The position numbers were made by a program, and so were the translations under genes. The notes under the pieces were generated by a model. That model saw nothing but the letters and a program-made list of their open reading frames with translations, did no database searches and was not told the DNA's origin. Shown here piece by piece: positions 3,318 to 25,905 of a stretch of DNA of 32,182 bases. The stretch is from Candidatus Nanopelagicaceae bacterium (lineage in GTDB: Bacteria; Actinomycetota; Actinomycetes; Nanopelagicales; Nanopelagicaceae): assembly GCA_018882745.1 (NCBI GenBank), contig VFFD01000009.1:1-32182 (forward strand), given 5' to 3'. How positions within the stretch are numbered: the stretch's first letter is position 1; each line of letters begins with the position of its first letter.

Positions 3318-4139
3318 TCATTCTATGGCAGAACGGGTTTTGAGGTTGAGATTACGCAAATACATGACGGAACCTACGACGAGAAGCGCGCTTGTCCAAA
3401 TATTGAGTCTCAAACCCAAAATCTCGTTTGCCTCATCGATGCGAATACTCTCGATAACGCCTCGACCCAGAGAATAGAGCGCAACATACAGTGCAAATAT
3501 TGATCCTGCCGCAAGATTTCTGCGCTTGAAGTACGTGACTAAGAGAATTGCAACAAAAGTGCACCAGATTGATTCATAGAGAAAGACGGGATGGAAAGTC
3601 TGGCTCGATGAATATCCGATAGGTCTATATTGAATAGGAATCTCCAGACCCCATGGTGCATCAAGCGGTCTTCCAAACAACTCTTTATTGAACCAATTTC
3701 CCCATCGACCAATTGCTTGGGCAATTAGAAGTCCCGGTGCTAGCGCATCTGCAAATCGTGCAAATGGAATTTGTTCTGTGCGTGAACTTCGCCGATACGC
3801 AAGATATGCCCCAGCAAATCCCAGAGAAATTGCACCCCAAATTCCTAAACCACCTTGCCAGATGTAAAACGCTTCAACCCAATTTCCATTTGCTCCAAAA
3901 TACTGTTGCGGAGAAGTAATCACGTGATAGATGCGGCCCCCAATGATTCCTGAGGGAACTGCGATTACTGCAATATCACTGACAACTCCGGGTTTACCTC
4001 CCAAAGCAACGTAACGTTGATTTCCTATAAATACGGCGGCAATAATTCCAGCGATGATGCAAAGTGCATAGAAATGAAAGGTCAGCGGACCAATCTCAAT
4101 CTGAGATTGCGCGGGTGAAGGTATAGAAGCGATAATCAC
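3318..4139 (-). CDS. lgt: Prolipoprotein diacylglyceryl transferase
   Basis: Membrane enzyme that transfers diacylglycerol from phosphatidylglycerol to the lipobox cysteine of prolipoproteins, the first step of lipoprotein maturation. The 273-residue protein has the expected multiple membrane helices. The Lgt signature GRWGNWFNKELFGRP is at residues about 144-158, with Arg145 at the position of the essential E. coli Arg143; IYH (70-72) and the C-terminal GRGVIESIR are also conserved. The start is GTG at 4139, overlapping the upstream dsbA-like stop by 4 bp (GTGA), so it is translationally coupled. Its neighbours on both sides are conserved in Actinobacteria (trpA upstream, gltB downstream). 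lspA, which acts next in the same pathway, is also in this window at 19347. Confidence 0.96.
   Translation of the reverse strand: MIIASIPSPAQSQIEIGPLTFHFYALCIIAGIIAAVFIGNQRYVALGGKPGVVSDIAVIAVPSGIIGGRIYHVITSPQQYFGANGNWVEAFYIWQGGLGIWGAISLGFAGAYLAYRRSSRTEQIPFARFADALAPGLLIAQAIGRWGNWFNKELFGRPLDAPWGLEIPIQYRPIGYSSSQTFHPVFLYESIWCTFVAILLVTYFKRRNLAAGSIFALYVALYSLGRGVIESIRIDEANEILGLRLNIWTSALLVVGSVMYLRNLNLKTRSAIE
3320..3325 (-). promoter_or_regulatory. Putative -10 box for a leaderless VIT transcript
   Basis: TAGAAT on the minus strand is separated by 6 nt (GACGAT) from the ATG at 3313. Initiation 7 nt after the hexamer would begin the mRNA at the A of the start codon. The hexamer overlaps the last codons of lgt. 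No clear -35 is visible. Confidence 0.5.
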
Positions 4140-4882
4140 TGCTTCGCTGCTTCAACCGCCGCCTTAAACTCATCAAGCTTGAATTCGGAACCGCTACGGC
4201 TCCAAGGCTTGCCGTTGATAAATACGGTTGGAGTTCCCTCTACTTTGTTCTTGGCCATAGATTTATAGACCTTATCTACATTGTCTCCATATTTGTTTTC
4301 ATTTACGCAACTTTCAAAGGTGGGACTCGTTATTCCTAATCGCTTTCCAATTTCTACCAAATTCTTATTTGAGAAAATGCCACTGTTTTCTGCGCCCTGA
4401 ACGGCGTAGATGGCTTTATGGAATTCAATAAAGCGGCCTTCATCTGCTGCACAATACGCCGCATTAGTTGCGCGCTTTGACTCCATACCGAGGAAAGAGG
4501 TCATGTGGTACGTAACTTTTGCTTCTTGATTTCTTATAAGTCCTTCAATGTATTCATCCATCTCATCTTCAAAGAACTTGCAGAAGGGGCATTGGAAGTC
4601 TTCCCAGATGTTGATTGATAGTGGCGCGTCGACATTGAAGGTAATCCCATAATCGTTTTCTGGGAGTACTGCACCCTTGAGGGGGGCGCCATTTTGGGAA
4701 GAATCAATGCTCTCGATCGAAGCTGGAAGAGCAGTTTCTGAACCTGAACGTTTATCGAGAACGGTAAAAATCACGCCAGAAAGAACTACGAGCGCCACCA
4801 TTCCAATCACAATGTTCCGAGTGACGGTATCGCCCGATTTCTTGGATCCGCGGCTATCTCTTTGGCGAGGTTCCTTTGGCAC
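4136..4882 (-). CDS. Membrane-anchored DsbA-like thiol oxidoreductase
   Basis: 248-residue protein with a short basic cytosolic N-terminus, one membrane segment (about 23-42), a linker, and an exported DsbA/thioredoxin_4 fold (about 80-245). The active site CPFC is at residues 98-101 and the cis-proline loop GTPTVFING at about 216-224. Two further cysteines (144 and 192) could form a second, structural disulfide, as in actinobacterial DsbA-type proteins. It probably forms or isomerises disulfides in exported proteins. The start is GTG at 4882, supported by AAAGGAG 5 nt upstream. It overlaps lgt by 4 bp, so the two envelope-biogenesis genes are one unit. It is separated from trpA by 128 bp. 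Confidence 0.92.
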   Translation of the reverse strand: MPKEPRQRDSRGSKKSGDTVTRNIVIGMVALVVLSGVIFTVLDKRSGSETALPASIESIDSSQNGAPLKGAVLPENDYGITFNVDAPLSINIWEDFQCPFCKFFEDEMDEYIEGLIRNQEAKVTYHMTSFLGMESKRATNAAYCAADEGRFIEFHKAIYAVQGAENSGIFSNKNLVEIGKRLGITSPTFESCVNENKYGDNVDKVYKSMAKNKVEGTPTVFINGKPWSRSGSEFKLDEFKAAVEAAKQ

Positions 4883-4887
4883 AGCAA

Positions 4888-4894
4888 CTCCTTT
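4888..4894 (-). promoter_or_regulatory. Strong Shine-Dalgarno fixing the GTG start of the DsbA-like gene
   Basis: AAAGGAG is followed by 5 nt (TTGCT) and the GTG at 4882. It is among the strongest ribosome-binding sites in the window and contrasts with the SD-less, apparently leaderless genes. Confidence 0.7.
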
Positions 4895-4917
4895 GTATCT
4901 CTTAATTCTTAATTCTG

Positions 4918-4952
4918 CTTCGGCACCATGACTTGGCCGTGCCAGAAGTCTA
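4918..4952 (-). promoter_or_regulatory. Candidate -10 box and 5'-leader hairpin of dsbA-lgt
   Basis: Minus-strand TAGACT (4952-4947) is the same hexamer used at hisD, trpB and kynU, but here the start codon is about 65 nt downstream, so a real leader is expected. Just after it, GGCAC/GTGCC (4943-4939 with 4926-4922) and flanking CTTC/GAAG with one bulged base can form a hairpin near the mRNA 5' end. No recognised riboswitch core is seen. No convincing -35 is present. Confidence 0.35.
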
Positions 4953-5010
4953 AACCACGACTACCCATTCAGACATTTCGACAATTGCGAGAGTCCAGCG
5001 AGTGCAAAGA

Positions 5011-5799
5011 CTATGAGCGGCGGACACCCTCTGAGAGTTGCTCAGCCAGGGTTCTGACTCGGGCGATTGAGTCATCATCGGAATTCGACTCCAAAACTAA
5101 CTTAATAAATGCTGAGCCAACAATGACGCCATCTGCGTAAGAAGCGACCTGGTTGGCTTGCTCTGCATTAGAAACGCCCAACCCGACTGCAATAGGAAGT
5201 TGCGTGACCCTTCTAATTCGTGCAACTAGTTCACTTGCAGATCCTGAAACAGAATTTCGCGCTCCTGTAACGCCCATCAGACTTGCTGCATATACAAATC
5301 CAGAACACGCCCTGGTTACTTCCGCTAATCGTGCATCTGAAGTACTTGGCGCGACCACATATATGCGATTGATACTGTGATGGTTAGTCGTGGTTATCCA
5401 TTCGGCCGACTCTTCGATAGTGAGATCGGGCGTAATGACTCCAACTCCACCAGCATGCGAGAGTCCTCGTGCAAAATTCTCGACTCCAAATCGTTCGATG
5501 GGATTCCAATATGACATTACTAGGGCTGGTGCTTTAATTTGCGAAACTAGATTCAAAACATCCTGCGCGCTTGTGCCGTTTCTCAAAGATGTTTCTGCAG
5601 CTTGTTGAATAACGGGGCCGTCCATGACTGGATCGCTGTAAGGGAATCCAACTTCGACTATATCTACGCCACCATCAACCATTGCATTAATCAGACGTGC
5701 AGACAATTCGCTAGTAGGAAAACCTGCTGGCATGTATCCGATTAGCGCAGCTCGATTCTCACTCTTTGCGCGTTCGAATACTTCTTTAAGACTTTTCAT
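5011..5799 (-). CDS. trpA: Tryptophan synthase alpha chain
   Basis: Cytosolic alpha subunit that cleaves indole-3-glycerol phosphate to indole and glyceraldehyde-3-phosphate and channels indole to TrpB. The 262 residues are full length. The two catalytic acids are exactly at the canonical positions, Glu49 in VEVGFPYSDP and Asp60 in VMDGP. The phosphate-binding C-terminal loops are present (GLGVSNAEQ, and GVIVGSAFI near the end). The ATG at 5799 is 14 bp after the trpB stop, so TrpA is probably co-translated with TrpB. It is the last gene of the his-trp block. Confidence 0.98.
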   Translation of the reverse strand: MKSLKEVFERAKSENRAALIGYMPAGFPTSELSARLINAMVDGGVDIVEVGFPYSDPVMDGPVIQQAAETSLRNGTSAQDVLNLVSQIKAPALVMSYWNPIERFGVENFARGLSHAGGVGVITPDLTIEESAEWITTTNHHSINRIYVVAPSTSDARLAEVTRACSGFVYAASLMGVTGARNSVSGSASELVARIRRVTQLPIAVGLGVSNAEQANQVASYADGVIVGSAFIKLVLESNSDDDSIARVRTLAEQLSEGVRRS

Positions 5800-20797: not shown

Positions 20798-20959
20798 ACC
20801 AGGCAATCACCTGTGAGCGAGTTGGAAGAAGTGGGCCAAGGCTCATGTAGAACCAACGGTAAGAAAGTTAAGTGGCAGCGAAGGCTGCAAGGCGGGTGGT
20901 ACCGCGGTCAATCACGATCGCCCCTCCATAAGTTCACATTATGGGAGGGATTTTTTTTT
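20798..20959 (+). promoter_or_regulatory. T-box riboswitch, ultrashort stem I, isoleucine (AUC) specifier
   Basis: tRNA-Ile-sensing leader of ileS. Stem I is only CAGG/CCTG (20800-20803 with 20810-20813), and its terminal loop CAATCA contains the specifier AUC at 20806-20808. A second stem, GTTGG/CCAAC (20821-20825 with 20853-20857), follows, then stem III GCAGC-GAAG-GCTGC (20875-20888). The conserved T-box GGGTGGTACCGCGG (20894-20907) contains the UGGUACC bulge that pairs with the uncharged tRNA end; GGCG (20891) can pair with CGCC (20919). The competing hairpin pairs CCCTCCATAA (20922-20931) with TTATGGGAGGG (20939-20949), hiding the Shine-Dalgarno GGGAGGG. A run of nine T follows, directly before the ATG. 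High confidence as a T-box; the mode of action is discussed under findings. Confidence 0.93.
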
Positions 20960-23900
20960 ATGGCCGAAAAGTCGCCGTATGTTGCTCTTGCACCAGCAAT
21001 AGATCTCCCCGCAATCGAGCGCGACATTCTCTCCTTCTGGCAAACCCAAGATGTATTTCATTCCAGCGTTCACATGAGAGCGGGCGGCGAATCATGGACT
21101 TTTTATGAAGGTCCTCCCACAGCAAATGGAATGCCTGGAACGCACCACATTGAAGCGCGGGTATTTAAAGATGTCTTTCCACGTTTTCACACCATGAAAG
21201 GCAAGCACGTCATCCGCAAAGCTGGGTGGGATTGCCATGGCCTTCCTGTTGAGATTGCAGTTGAAAAAGAACTTGGATTTTCAGGTAAAGGCGATATCGA
21301 AAAGTATGGCATCGCAGCCTTTAACAATAAATGTCGTGAATCCGTACAACGTCACGTTGATGCATTTACCGCCATGACAGAGCGCATGGGATTCTGGGTT
21401 GATTTTGATGAAGCGTATTGGACTATGTCTGATGAATACATTGAAAGCGTTTGGTGGTCACTTGCAGAGATTCATAAGAAAGGTCTCCTGGTTCAAGACC
21501 ATCGCGTTGCACCATATTGCCCGCGTTGTGGAACGGGACTTTCCGATCATGAATTAGCGCAAGGCTATGAGACTGTTAAAGATCCTTCGGTCTATGTCCG
21601 CTTCCCTATTACCTCGGGCGAATTAGAAAAGCTGGGCGCCTCTCTACTTGTCTGGACCACAACTCCATGGACGCTAGTTTCCAACACCGCGATTGCGGTA
21701 CATCCTGACGTTGATTATGTAGCAGCGCGCACTAAAGAAACTGAGGATGTAAAAAGTGAAGTTCTTGTCGTCGCTGAACCGCTTCTCTCCGTTCTTGGAG
21801 ATGGCTATGAAGTAATCAAGAAAATGAAAGGCAGCGATCTAGAACGCACCTCATACGCGCGTCCTTTTGACTATGTAGAGATCCCAGATTCTCACTTTGT
21901 GATTCTTGCTGATTACGTCACCACCGAAGATGGAACTGGTTTAGTCCATCAATCCCCTGCATTTGGCGCAGATGACTTGGCGAGCTGCCGTCGTTACAAC
22001 CTTCCAGTTGTGAATCCCATCTTGCCTAATGGTCACTTTCAAGAAAACGTAAACCTAGTTGGCGGTCTCTTCTTCAAAGAGGCCGATAAGCCACTTGTTA
22101 AGGAACTAAAAAATTCTGGTCGCCTCTATCGCCATCAGCAATATGAACATACCTACCCGCATTGCTGGAGATGCCACACACCTCTTATCTATTACGCACA
22201 ACCATCCTGGTATATCCGCACCACGAAGATTAAAGATGCGCTCTTGCGGGAGAACGCTGCCACTGATTGGCATCCAGAAACCATCAAGACTGGACGCTTT
22301 GGTGATTGGCTCAACAACAATATTGATTGGGCTCTCTCCCGTAATCGCTACTGGGGAACTCCACTTCCGATCTGGCGCTGCGAGAATGCCCATGAAGAAT
22401 CTTTTGGTTCCCGAAAAGAACTGCAAGAGCGAACCGGCAGAGACCTCGCAGATCTTGAACTTCATCGACCATACGTTGATGACATAACTTTCGCGTGCAA
22501 AGAATGTTCCGCAACAATGCTTCGCACTCCCGAGGTTATTGATTGTTGGTATGACTCTGGAGCTATGCCTTTTGCACAATGGGGCTACCCACACAAACCA
22601 GGTTCAGTTGAGAAATTCAATGAGGCTTATCCTGCGGACTTCATCTGCGAAGCCATCGACCAGACGCGCGGTTGGTTCTACACACTGATGGCAATTGGGA
22701 CCCTGGTCTTTAATAAATCTTCATACAAGACCGTGCTCTGCCTAGGCCACATCCTTGATAAAGATGGCCGCAAGATGAGCAAGCACCTGGGAAATGTTCT
22801 CGAACCAATGGCGCTGATGGATCAACATGGCGCAGATGCGGTGCGTTGGTACATGCTCGCAGCTGGCTCTCCATGGAGCGCTCGCCGCGTAGGTCATGAT
22901 GCAATCTCAGAAGTAGTACGTAAAACGCTCCTCACTTATTGGAATACCGTCTCTTTCCTCTCTTTATATGCATCAGCGGCGAATTACAGCCCTCAACCAA
23001 TTTCAGATTCATCACAACTCTCCACAATGGATCGCTGGATTATTAGCGAACTCAATCAACTCATCGCCACCGTTGATGCAGCCCTCAACGACTTCGACTC
23101 TCAAGCCGCTGGCTCAGCGCTAGCTACTTTTGTTGATGACCTATCTAATTGGTATGTCCGCCGCTCGCGTCGCCGATTCTGGGATGGCGATAGCGCCGCG
23201 CTATCGACGTTGCATCATTGCCTCAAGACAGTGACTCTTTTAATGGCGCCGATGGTTCCATTTATCACCGAACATGTCTGGCAAAAATTGATCCGCGTCG
23301 TCGAACCCAACTCTCCTACGTCAGTTCACCTCGCAGACTTCCCAGTCGCAGACAAGAAGTCGATAGAAGTGCAGCTTTCAAAAGATGTTGCACTTACCCG
23401 CAGGCTTGTAGAACTTGGTCGCGCCTCCCGCGCCCAATCACAAGTAAAGATTCGCCAACCTCTCTCGCGCGCTCTCATTGCCGCACCTGCATGGAAGTCA
23501 CTCTCCACCGAGCTTCGCGATCAAATCGCAGATGAACTCAATGTTGAAAACCTTGATGATCTATCAAGTGCCGGATCAGGACTTGTTGATATCTCTATCA
23601 AAGCTAATTTCCGCAGCCTCGGCGCAAAATTCGGCGGCGATGTCCAAGCGATTGCAAAAGTAATCTCATCTTCTGATGCCACAGCACTCGTCTCTGAAGT
23701 AAGAACACATGGCAAGTTCTCTCTGCCGTATGGAGACGGCTCAGTCGCTGACGTAACGGAAGAAGATCTTGTCATCACTGAAACGCCCCGAACTGGTTGG
23801 GCTGTCACTTCCCACTCCGGTGAGAGCGTTGCACTCGACCTCACTCTTACTCCGGAACTCATCTCAAAAGGAATCGTTCGCGAAGCCATTCGAGCAATCC

Positions 23901-24109
23901 AAGATGCACGTAAAGCTTCAGGATTCGATGTCAGTGATCGCATTCAAGTGAAATGGAATTCTGATGCTGCATCAGCCTCCGCCATTGAAAACGGAAAGGT
24001 ATGGATTAGTGAGGAAGTGTTGGCACTTTCTTTCGAACGAGACTTCGCACTTAAGCCCGGTCAAGATGAACTAGGACTTGTTCTCTCTCTAGATAAATCT
24101 CTATCGTAA
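20960..24109 (+). CDS. ileS: Isoleucyl-tRNA synthetase, eukaryote-like type 2 (GTHH signature)
   Basis: Charges tRNA-Ile. The ATG at 20960 is set by the GGGAGGG ribosome-binding site in the T-box and gives 1,049 residues; the open frame extends 49 codons upstream through the riboswitch but that part is not coding. The usual HIGH motif reads GTHH (residues 60-63). The second signature is KMSKH (605-609, in DGRKMSKHLGN). An inserted CP1 editing domain is present (WTTTPWTLVSNTAI), as are CPRCGTGLSDHE and CWRCHTPLIYY cysteine pairs and the type-2 anticodon-binding and C-terminal domains. Length and motifs place it with IleRS2 of Actinobacteria and eukaryotes. It is the only strongly regulated gene start in the window. 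Confidence 0.97.
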   Translation: MAEKSPYVALAPAIDLPAIERDILSFWQTQDVFHSSVHMRAGGESWTFYEGPPTANGMPGTHHIEARVFKDVFPRFHTMKGKHVIRKAGWDCHGLPVEIAVEKELGFSGKGDIEKYGIAAFNNKCRESVQRHVDAFTAMTERMGFWVDFDEAYWTMSDEYIESVWWSLAEIHKKGLLVQDHRVAPYCPRCGTGLSDHELAQGYETVKDPSVYVRFPITSGELEKLGASLLVWTTTPWTLVSNTAIAVHPDVDYVAARTKETEDVKSEVLVVAEPLLSVLGDGYEVIKKMKGSDLERTSYARPFDYVEIPDSHFVILADYVTTEDGTGLVHQSPAFGADDLASCRRYNLPVVNPILPNGHFQENVNLVGGLFFKEADKPLVKELKNSGRLYRHQQYEHTYPHCWRCHTPLIYYAQPSWYIRTTKIKDALLRENAATDWHPETIKTGRFGDWLNNNIDWALSRNRYWGTPLPIWRCENAHEESFGSRKELQERTGRDLADLELHRPYVDDITFACKECSATMLRTPEVIDCWYDSGAMPFAQWGYPHKPGSVEKFNEAYPADFICEAIDQTRGWFYTLMAIGTLVFNKSSYKTVLCLGHILDKDGRKMSKHLGNVLEPMALMDQHGADAVRWYMLAAGSPWSARRVGHDAISEVVRKTLLTYWNTVSFLSLYASAANYSPQPISDSSQLSTMDRWIISELNQLIATVDAALNDFDSQAAGSALATFVDDLSNWYVRRSRRRFWDGDSAALSTLHHCLKTVTLLMAPMVPFITEHVWQKLIRVVEPNSPTSVHLADFPVADKKSIEVQLSKDVALTRRLVELGRASRAQSQVKIRQPLSRALIAAPAWKSLSTELRDQIADELNVENLDDLSSAGSGLVDISIKANFRSLGAKFGGDVQAIAKVISSSDATALVSEVRTHGKFSLPYGDGSVADVTEEDLVITETPRTGWAVTSHSGESVALDLTLTPELISKGIVREAIRAIQDARKASGFDVSDRIQVKWNSDAASASAIENGKVWISEEVLALSFERDFALKPGQDELGLVLSLDKSLS
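24102..24107 (+). promoter_or_regulatory. Putative -10 box for a leaderless protease transcript
   Basis: TATCGT overlaps the last codons and the stop of ileS and is followed by 6 nt (AAGAAA) and the ATG at 24114. The spacing is the same as at the other TANNNT starts. It could let the protease be expressed apart from T-box control. Confidence 0.4.
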
Positions 24110-24113
24110 GAAA

Positions 24114-25109
24114 ATGCAAAAGTCAGTCAGAAACCGAGCCAGTAAACGGTTCTTTCCGATTCTTGCGAGCGTTCTACTCTCACTTCTACTGCCGTTGCCA
24201 AACGCTTGGCCCATCTATGGCGGCCAAGAATCTATTGCAAATCCGATTGTTGTTGGATTGCTGCAGGGTCAATATGCAACTAATTCTGGGTGCAGCGGTG
24301 CACTGGTAGCTCCCCAAATAGTTTTCACAGCAGCACATTGCCTTGGCGGCACCGCAAGTAACTTCTGGGTTGCCTCACCGGGCTCTGATCTACGCGATGC
24401 AACAACACTTCGAATTCAAGTCGAATCATTCCTTGTTCCAGATGGATTTTCTACAACTCAATTCCCATATGACAACGATTTTGGAATTGTTATTCTTAAG
24501 GCGCCATTTCCAAACGCTAAGGTTGTAAAGATTGCAACAATAGATCAGATAACAAATTGGGTTGCTCAAGAGGCGGACGTACTCCATGTTGGATATGGTT
24601 GTACTGCACTCGTTGATTCGCCGCCGTGCGGTAAAACAAGTCCGATTCCATTTCAACTGGAAACTCAGTTGAGAAAAACTATCCCGCCACAATTCGCTTC
24701 GTTGAAGCCAAATACATTCACTGTCACAAAGATCTCAGTGGAGAAAACCATTTGTGGGGGTGATTCGGGATCGCCGCTTCTAAAGATGGTTGAGGGTTCT
24801 TGGCTATACATCGGTGCCCAAAGTTCGAGCAATGGCGCTGGCTGTACGAAAACTTGTAACGATTTATGCAGCGCTACACAAGGAATACCCGCTGCGAACC
24901 CGACGCTCATGAATCAGATCCAGAAGTACCTTGTCCCCTCTGTTCCTTCGGCAACACCTACTCCGCAACAAAGTCCATCTCCTATTTCGAGCATGACTAC
25001 GAACCCTTCGAGTAAGAAGAAAATCACCATCACTTGCACTAAGGGAAAAATCACAAAGAAAATCACCGCAGTCAATCCCAAGTGCCCTATCGGGTACAAG
25101 AAAAAGTAG
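24114..25109 (+). CDS. Secreted trypsin-like (S1) serine protease with Lys-rich C-terminal motif
   Basis: 331 residues. A signal peptide (basic start, hydrophobic core about 13-28) ends near PNAWP, right before IYGG (34-37), which resembles the IVGG mature N-terminus of trypsin-like enzymes; activation may need only a very short propeptide. The triad is His75 (TAAHC), Asp122 (DNDFGIVIL) and Ser218 (CGGDSGSPL). Paired cysteines (60/76, 163/172, 214, 244/248/252) suggest disulfides. A Pro/Ser/Thr linker (about 276-300) leads to a C-terminal module with Cys308 and Cys324 in a lysine-rich setting (ITCTKGKITKKI, NPKCPIGYKKK), possibly a wall- or surface-binding tag. The substrate is unknown. It follows ileS by 4 bp and faces kynA with 1 bp between stop codons. 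Confidence 0.9.
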   Translation: MQKSVRNRASKRFFPILASVLLSLLLPLPNAWPIYGGQESIANPIVVGLLQGQYATNSGCSGALVAPQIVFTAAHCLGGTASNFWVASPGSDLRDATTLRIQVESFLVPDGFSTTQFPYDNDFGIVILKAPFPNAKVVKIATIDQITNWVAQEADVLHVGYGCTALVDSPPCGKTSPIPFQLETQLRKTIPPQFASLKPNTFTVTKISVEKTICGGDSGSPLLKMVEGSWLYIGAQSSSNGAGCTKTCNDLCSATQGIPAANPTLMNQIQKYLVPSVPSATPTPQQSPSPISSMTTNPSSKKKITITCTKGKITKKITAVNPKCPIGYKKK

Positions 25110-25110
25110 C

Positions 25111-25905
25111 TTAAAACTTACTTCTGATCTCCCAGAGATCGGGAAACACTGGCTTAAACAAAGTTGAAGCTAAGTAATCAGCGCCGCTAGAGCCACCCGT
25201 TCCTGATTTATGGCCAATAGTGCGTTCGACCATCTTTACATGTCGATAACGCCACTCTTGTAGACCTTCATCGATATCAACAAGGCGTTCACAGATAAGT
25301 GAACCTTCTGGGTCATTGCGATGCATGTCAAGCAAAGAGGTCTGCACATCAGAGTTGGGTTCATAATGTTTCGAGTAGTCACGATCAAGTATCTGGTCCG
25401 GAATTGCAAAGCCACGTGAGTGCACATATCTAAGTGCGCTATCCCAAATTGATCGTGTCTTCATAAGTGCTTCAACTCGTGCTTTATCTTCGGGCATCAG
25501 ATGTGCAGCAGTTTTGCTATCACGTCTGCCAAGAATTGCTTCAACCTCTCGGAATTGGGCTGATTGAAATCCGCTTGAGGCACCTAAACGATCTCGGAAA
25601 GAGTTGAATTGAAGTGGAGTCATCGTTTCAAGAATGTCGATTTGAGCTACACAAATCTTCATAATGGTTCGAATGCGCCCCAAGATAGAAAGCGAGTAAT
25701 GGGTATCACCCGCTTCCAGCGAGCGCTGAACAGCTTTAAATTCATGAATCAACTCTTTAAACCAGAGTTCATACGTTTGGTGAATGACGATAAAGAGAAG
25801 TTCGTCATGTTCGGGGCCATCCGAGAGTGGTTGTTGAAGTTTTAAAAGCTCGTCCACTTTGAGATAGGAGCTGTACGTAAGGGCGGCATCATGGTTGTCG
25901 GTCAT
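25111..25905 (-). CDS. kynA: Tryptophan 2,3-dioxygenase
   Basis: Haem enzyme that opens the indole ring of tryptophan to N-formylkynurenine. The 264-residue protein is of normal bacterial length. It has the substrate-site HQTYELWFKELIHEF (His42 corresponds to the conserved distal histidine), Arg104 in FRDRLGASSGFQS, the haem-ligand His232 in TIGHKSGTGGSSG, and SSYLKVDELL near the start. The start overlaps the kynU stop by 4 bp (ATGA). A perfect inverted repeat sits near the 3' end. No kynurenine formamidase gene is in the window. Confidence 0.95.
   Translation of the reverse strand: MTDNHDAALTYSSYLKVDELLKLQQPLSDGPEHDELLFIVIHQTYELWFKELIHEFKAVQRSLEAGDTHYSLSILGRIRTIMKICVAQIDILETMTPLQFNSFRDRLGASSGFQSAQFREVEAILGRRDSKTAAHLMPEDKARVEALMKTRSIWDSALRYVHSRGFAIPDQILDRDYSKHYEPNSDVQTSLLDMHRNDPEGSLICERLVDIDEGLQEWRYRHVKMVERTIGHKSGTGGSSGADYLASTLFKPVFPDLWEIRSKF
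25126..25140. repeat. Perfect inverted repeat in the 3' end of kynA
   Basis: GATCTC-CCA-GAGATC, a 6-bp stem with 3-nt loop, inside the last codons of kynA and 17 bp past the protease stop. On the minus strand it is followed by T-rich sequence (GTTTTAAGCTACTTTTT), so it might help end kynA transcription. The tract is not contiguous, so a terminator call is weak. Confidence 0.3.

Follow-up and report, generated by a model that had tools for sequence, protein, structure and literature searches.

GW, LysM, SLH, CWB2 and Excalibur modules are small and attach the exported proteins of Gram-positive bacteria to the envelope non-covalently; wall modules of this sort frequently occur as repeats or at internal positions, and those of the GW type are cationic and bind lipoteichoic acid. 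LPXTG and PEP-CTERM are tripartite C-terminal sorting signals, and they show the same likenesses to the protein tail described here as do GlyGly-CTERM and MYXO-CTERM. As described for GlyGly-CTERM (PMC3237569) and MYXO-CTERM (PMC11980579), these likenesses comprise a short C-terminal homology region on many unrelated signal-peptide proteins per genome, basic C-terminal residues, and homologues with another tail or none. The tail differs from all four signals in being without a transmembrane helix, in having two cysteines and a predicted hairpin instead of a cleavage motif, and in that no partner enzyme was found for it (15 neighbourhoods; sortase in 0/17 tagged genomes). From GW, LysM, SLH, CWB2 and Excalibur it is set apart by the lack of a Pfam match (103 tails) and by never being repeated or internal. 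Since it has no CTERM membrane helix, the tail is not a CTERM member; it resembles the CTERM tags in kind, and matches no Pfam, NCBIfam or PDB family. It is a free-standing C-terminal tag of ~31 residues that occurs once per protein on many unrelated exported proteins, both in one freshwater actinobacterial family and in phages that share genes with it.

The window, by which we mean the whole 32,182-nucleotide stretch analyzed, encodes a secreted, tail-bearing trypsin-like serine protease of 331 aa at 24114..25109 on the + strand. A Pfam search of this ORF matched Trypsin (PF00089) at residues 53-246 (E 3.5e-16), the body scoring 60.1 bits, above the curated cut-off of 20.6. The body shares the His and Asp-Ser-Gly motifs of trypsin-like secreted peptidases (PF00089): His75, Asp217, Ser218 and Gly219 are invariant in an alignment of 17 tagged trypsins, and we take His75, the Asp of DNDFG and Ser218 to be catalytic. 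The C-terminal tag, in contrast, is extra to that family. The N-terminus is signal-peptide-like, as judged from the sequence and from a hydropathy heuristic applied over carriers (residues ~1-31, ending in PLPNA; 24114..24206, +). The first-pass annotation had described a lysine-rich two-cysteine module ending the protease after a Pro/Ser/Thr linker, and this description was accurate: the linker spans residues ~277-300 (24942..25013, +, from sequence) and the tag residues 301-331 (25014..25106, +; profile match, alignment and AF2 model), reading KKKITITCTKGKITKKITAVNPKCPIGYKKK, while the interval first proposed (25014-25109) also takes in the stop codon at 25107-25109. The conserved cysteines, recognized in the sequence and the carrier alignment and initially placed about 16 residues apart, are Cys308 (codon 25035..25037, +) and Cys324 (codon 25083..25085, +, inside the P-x-C-P-x-G-Y block), a spacing of 16.

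Flanking the protease gene are a 1098-aa ORF at 20813-24109, presumably encoding isoleucyl-tRNA synthetase, and a convergent 264-aa ORF at 25111-25905 that we take to encode tryptophan 2,3-dioxygenase. The occurrence of the protease gene is sporadic: the catalytic domain was found in 3/24 genomes of the window's genus (g1), with only the window's own match being strong, and a relative of 55% identity is present in another genus (genome G039, locus L020). The neighborhoods of tagged trypsin genes differ from genome to genome.

Small lake actinobacteria of this kind are among the commonest lake bacteria, and we know of no account of surface decoration in them in the absence of sortase. The initial impression that similar endings occur on other secreted proteins of these organisms was borne out by a profile built from 26 tails, which matched 140/201 genomes of the window's family (E<=0.001), including 78/99 near-complete genomes and 15/17 genera. 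As many as 23 tags were found per genome among the 201, while 61 genomes, several of them near-complete, were tagless in the same scan. The profile matched the window's own genome at E 1.7e-16, with one tail copy only at every threshold tried. With the window's tail as the query, 44/100 relatives matched at E<=1; 42 of these belong to the 61 same-family genomes searched, and the two matches outside the family (E 0.75 and 0.94) were counted as chance. E-values reach 1e-18 for a single genome and the pattern recurs at hundreds of sites; a 33-position pattern in hundreds of places, together with a cysteine spacing of exactly 16 in 187/189 distinct carriers, places the similarity of the tails beyond chance. 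Tail-bearing records include Candidatus Planktophila lacus MMS-21-148 and strains IMCC26077, IMCC26103 and IMCC19121. The tag was also seen in MAGs titled Bifidobacterium breve, Ferrithrix and Streptomyces griseus (L063, L074, L090, L093, L101, L107, L118), titles that look like mislabelling.

Beyond the window's family, the tail is almost absent from the phylum: a phylum-wide draw gave 5/396 matches at E<=0.01, namely the window's own genome, two strong matches from a single further family (G458, G482) and two that are weak. Within that other actinobacterial family the tail was found in 2/61 genomes, which suggests transfer across families. The carrier there is a secreted, neocarzinostatin-like protein (loci L052 and L053; scanned in L052).

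Carriers were examined as 189 distinct proteins from 196 loci, and since these loci were picked by tail match, the resulting statistics cover tagged proteins only. The stop codon follows 0-6 residues past the tail in 189/189 carriers (at 0 in 149), and the tail is never internal, with 0/189 carriers holding two copies. By a hydropathy rule, 142/146 complete carriers >100 aa have a signal-peptide-like start; the same rule applied to all ORFs >=100 aa in a later, larger locus set marked 609/2084. In carriers >=80 aa, no long hydrophobic stretch was found in the last 80 aa, where the highest 17-aa mean hydropathy was 1.69. With the last 45 residues removed, 184 bodies fell by BLAST single linkage into 19 BLAST-unrelated clusters (105, 24, 15, 7, 6, 5 and fewer members), a number that distant homologies would lower. 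A reusable tag, as first proposed, is thus what the carriers show: one tail occurs on 19 BLAST-unrelated kinds of almost uniformly signal-peptide-like protein, which rules out a tail unique to orthologues of the window's protease. That the same ending should recur on unrelated exported proteins of one genome applies to relatives, including a MAG (record prefix CANLHI) with six tags on six different body clusters, but not to the window's genome with its one copy. Carrier domains include trypsin, LRR_5 (BspA-type LRR), fn3, Kelch, Ig-like, DUF3472 and neocarzinostatin-like domains, while many carriers have none; LRR_5, fn3, Kelch and Ig domains are typical of surface proteins. A weak glycoside hydrolase 43 match was also seen among the carriers.

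The prominence of one large cluster (105/184 bodies) could mean that the tails merely reflect shared ancestry, as remnants of a single gene family whose members diverged outside the tail. This explanation is very improbable and largely refuted by sequence comparisons: BLAST finds no similarity of the remaining 18 clusters to the large one or to each other, trypsin, LRR, Kelch and Ig domains do not share homology, and a phage protein tree shows at least two changes of the tag label (see below). The strict tag is absent in 8/265 homologous ORFs; among 7 distinct failures listed, five have divergent two-cysteine ends, one runs on into a stretch of N and one is without such an end. Tandem tagged genes of the 105-member cluster were seen at two loci, with six at L033 6973-17572 (G050:C1) and seven at L048 3075-15239 (G044:C4), encoding large secreted proteins, mostly of 520-690 aa. 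A model of a large-cluster carrier is beta-rich (pLDDT 85) and found no convincing match among solved folds, the best rows by E-value having TM-scores <=0.15 over the query.

The tail itself is conserved well beyond its cysteines. Two cysteines are present in 188/189 tails, and 181 aligned tails share the pattern I-x-C-x-K-G-K-x-x-K-K-V/I followed by P-x-C-P-x-G-Y/F-K-K, with C, C-P and G conserved at 1.00 and K-G-K at 0.97-0.98; a further tail alignment (A2) has invariant C, K, G, C, P and G. The last 33 residues carry a mean net charge of +9.6 (4 to 12), with Asp + Glu content of ~0.3%, whereas the bodies carry about -1 per 100 aa. AlphaFold2, given 103 tails, returned a confident beta-hairpin with strands ITITCTK and ITKKITA (block pLDDT 88-95), and a second, independent AF2 context, a 569-aa carrier of the large cluster, reproduced the hairpin (542-548 and 551-557). 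The tail is accordingly predicted as a beta-hairpin (ITCxKGK, turn, xxKKVT) onto which the P-x-C-P-x-G-Y/F-K-K block folds back, and the two cysteines probably form one disulfide; the compact two-cysteine module envisaged by the first-pass annotation is supported at the level of this model. Residues past the motif are variable (K, KA, NSIGV, QIGPKV), with neither an invariant free carboxylate nor a set cleavage site in evidence. In other carriers the linkers are rich in P, A, K and T and differ in sequence, some being of AEAKAKAE type.

A compact hairpin with a probable disulfide could simply cap the C-terminus for folding or stability, for instance as protection from proteases, with no role in location. 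We consider this improbable, as long flexible linkers part the tail from the folded body, and phage bodies ~73-80% identical to a tagged query are wholly without it.

Comparisons with known families ruled out a known domain for the tail. The 103 tails gave no family with a significant E-value in Pfam or NCBIfam, and no carbohydrate-binding family match in either; against the PDB, the best match was E 0.11 over 11 residues by sequence and E 2.3 by fold, and VIA-align reached Z 2.3 to the NIP1 elicitor, with no usable match. Searches of an open-access literature library turned up no paper on the tail. A membrane-anchored CTERM type was rejected, the carrier C-termini having a basic hairpin instead of a transmembrane stretch, and so was a sortase substrate of LPXTG type: PF04203 was found in 0/17 tagged and 1/9 untagged genomes (26 tested). 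VKOR as a general disulfide partner was likewise rejected, occurring in 3/3 genomes of genus g1 and 0/23 others of the family. The VKOR loci of genus g1 (L232, L233) were noted alongside a DsbA-like thioredoxin gene at 4136-4882 of the window.

Alternatively, the tail may be a sorting signal, similar to LPXTG, PEP-CTERM, GlyGly-CTERM and MYXO-CTERM signals though without the membrane helix, that is read by a dedicated, as yet unknown enzyme or receptor attaching or processing the carrier. The strictly C-terminal position, single copy, near-invariant motif and many carriers per genome are all consistent with this. Tails of unrelated carriers are also slightly more alike within genomes (0.750) than between them (0.730), with 19/5000 permutations as high, as though fitted to one shared partner; the difference, from 168 regex-selected rows, is small and could stem from close kinship. 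Nevertheless, a sorting signal appears rather unlikely given the missing transmembrane stretch, the absence of sortase from the tagged genomes tested, the variable residues past the motif and the substitution of other two-cysteine tails on phage trypsins. Furthermore, a single-target rule is reported for GlyGly-CTERM, under which the enzyme gene adjoins the lone target gene (PMC3237569), whereas in 15 tail loci surveyed for a partner enzyme, 8 of them from single-tag genomes, no neighbor family was shared across unrelated carriers except one in 2/15; a conserved neighbor gene was rejected on this basis.

Instead, and with middling confidence, we interpret the tail as a non-covalent, cationic, disulfide-locked tag for envelope retention. 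Its charge, its terminal position behind a flexible linker, the adhesin-like carriers, the lack of a membrane helix, of sortase in 17/17 tagged genomes and of a conserved neighbor enzyme, the tolerance of extra residues, and the exchange for other cationic two-cysteine tails on related proteases all argue for retention, as do the recurrence of the tail across genomes and body clusters, its predicted hairpin and its presence or absence on the same phage body. Carriers would be exported via the signal peptide (Sec), after which oxidation of the two tail cysteines would lock the hairpin with a disulfide; the lysine surface and the Y/F could then bind non-covalently to an anionic envelope polymer of the producing cell itself, with the variable linker serving as a spacer between body and tag. 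Such a tag may replace sortase or membrane anchoring in sortase-free bacteria, and in the case of the window's gene it would keep a trypsin-like protease at the cell surface rather than losing it to lake water. Counting against retention are the 61/201 tagless family genomes and the limitation of VKOR to genus g1 (3/26 genomes). In addition, a tail that is never repeated and always terminal looks more like a sorting signal than an envelope-binding module, and this strict single terminal copy makes a dedicated unknown partner the main rival.

On balance, the tag most likely keeps unrelated exported proteins of lake bacteria and their viruses on the cell surface. With a recognizable tag, hundreds of hypothetical proteins become a defined exoproteome that lends itself to testing, and phage genes directed at the host surface can be picked out; the tail, being short, could also be joined to a reporter.

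Carriage of the tag by freshwater phages was not part of the first-pass annotation. A first scan found the tail on 19 IMG/VR contigs, on two kinds of signal-peptide protein, while annotated phage records gave no tail match. The first kind is a 562-aa protein (L141 3402-5087) whose gene immediately follows that of the large terminase in 7/7 contigs, and a 35-kb contig encoding a protein of this type has PHROG matches to DNA polymerase, tape measure, minor tail, primase and helicase. The 562-aa protein itself has no PHROG name, Pfam match or PDB match. Among 128 relatives found, 80 were examined for the tag, which was present in 26 and absent in 54, the latter stopping ~28 residues earlier in ...INKQIAALQKLLLKK-like ends. 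Bodies ~73-80% identical to the tagged query can be wholly without the tag, and on a tree of 64 distinct phage bodies the tag label changes twice, both changes being forced by starred branches. The tag on the terminase-adjacent protein is a clean add-on, and its natural tagged and untagged versions offer a ready-made experiment. This protein is secreted, rich in Ala, Thr and Val, and coat-like, with at least 128 IMG/VR relatives (L245-L322 among the loci).

Phages that tag a secreted protein encoded behind terminase also bear on whether the target lies outside the producer, where the tag could bind algal or particle polysaccharide, chitin or DNA and so direct proteins to prey or substrate. The cationic hairpin and carriers including a protease, a weak glycoside hydrolase 43 match and adhesin-like folds would suit such a role; the phage arrangement, however, fits an infected-cell target better, and with no carbohydrate-binding family matched in Pfam or NCBIfam we regard an outside target as unlikely. 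Tentatively, freshwater actinophages may have taken over a host address label, exporting tagged coat-like (~520 residues, behind terminase) and trypsin-like proteins that would be held on the envelope and recoat or shave the infected cell, for example against superinfection, much as the host labels its own large, tandemly duplicated surface proteins; this is possible, though doubtful as a whole.

The second kind of tagged phage protein is a trypsin-like protease, on contigs matching endolysin, 2OG-oxygenase and carbamoyltransferase. On a tree of 30 trypsins, from which two short trypsins and two duplicates were left out, assigning the phage label requires 5 changes, no fewer than 3 of them forced by starred branches, while several flagged long branches leave the deeper joins unsure. 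Two phage-bacterium pairs (L137 with L200, L140 with L107) both have 100/100 support, and the surroundings of L200 and L107 are not phage-like, compared with the phage contigs. A second viral scan gave 27 distinct trypsin-matching ORFs, of which 17 were tagged (by regex; one divergent), 8 untagged and 2 cut off. Four of the 8 untagged proteins end in KKC-[IV]-K-[LI]-K-N-x-K-C-K-K and one has a third two-cysteine lysine-rich end, while such an end is lacking in the remaining three (L345, and two ORFs on L389). Other lysine-rich two-cysteine tails on 5/8 untagged closed phage trypsin ORFs look as if any cationic two-cysteine hairpin will do, and these ends are perhaps further tag families. The phage trypsins with other tails are at L347, L351, L352, L360 and L353, with types KKCxKLKNxKCKK and FTCIKKNNKLVW. 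On L137 (IMGVR_UViG_3300021376_002860), a contig classed as viral, a full-length tryptophan-halogenase-like gene (3465-5066; PHROG E 2.8e-139) lies close downstream of the tagged trypsin, with one 346-aa ORF between them.
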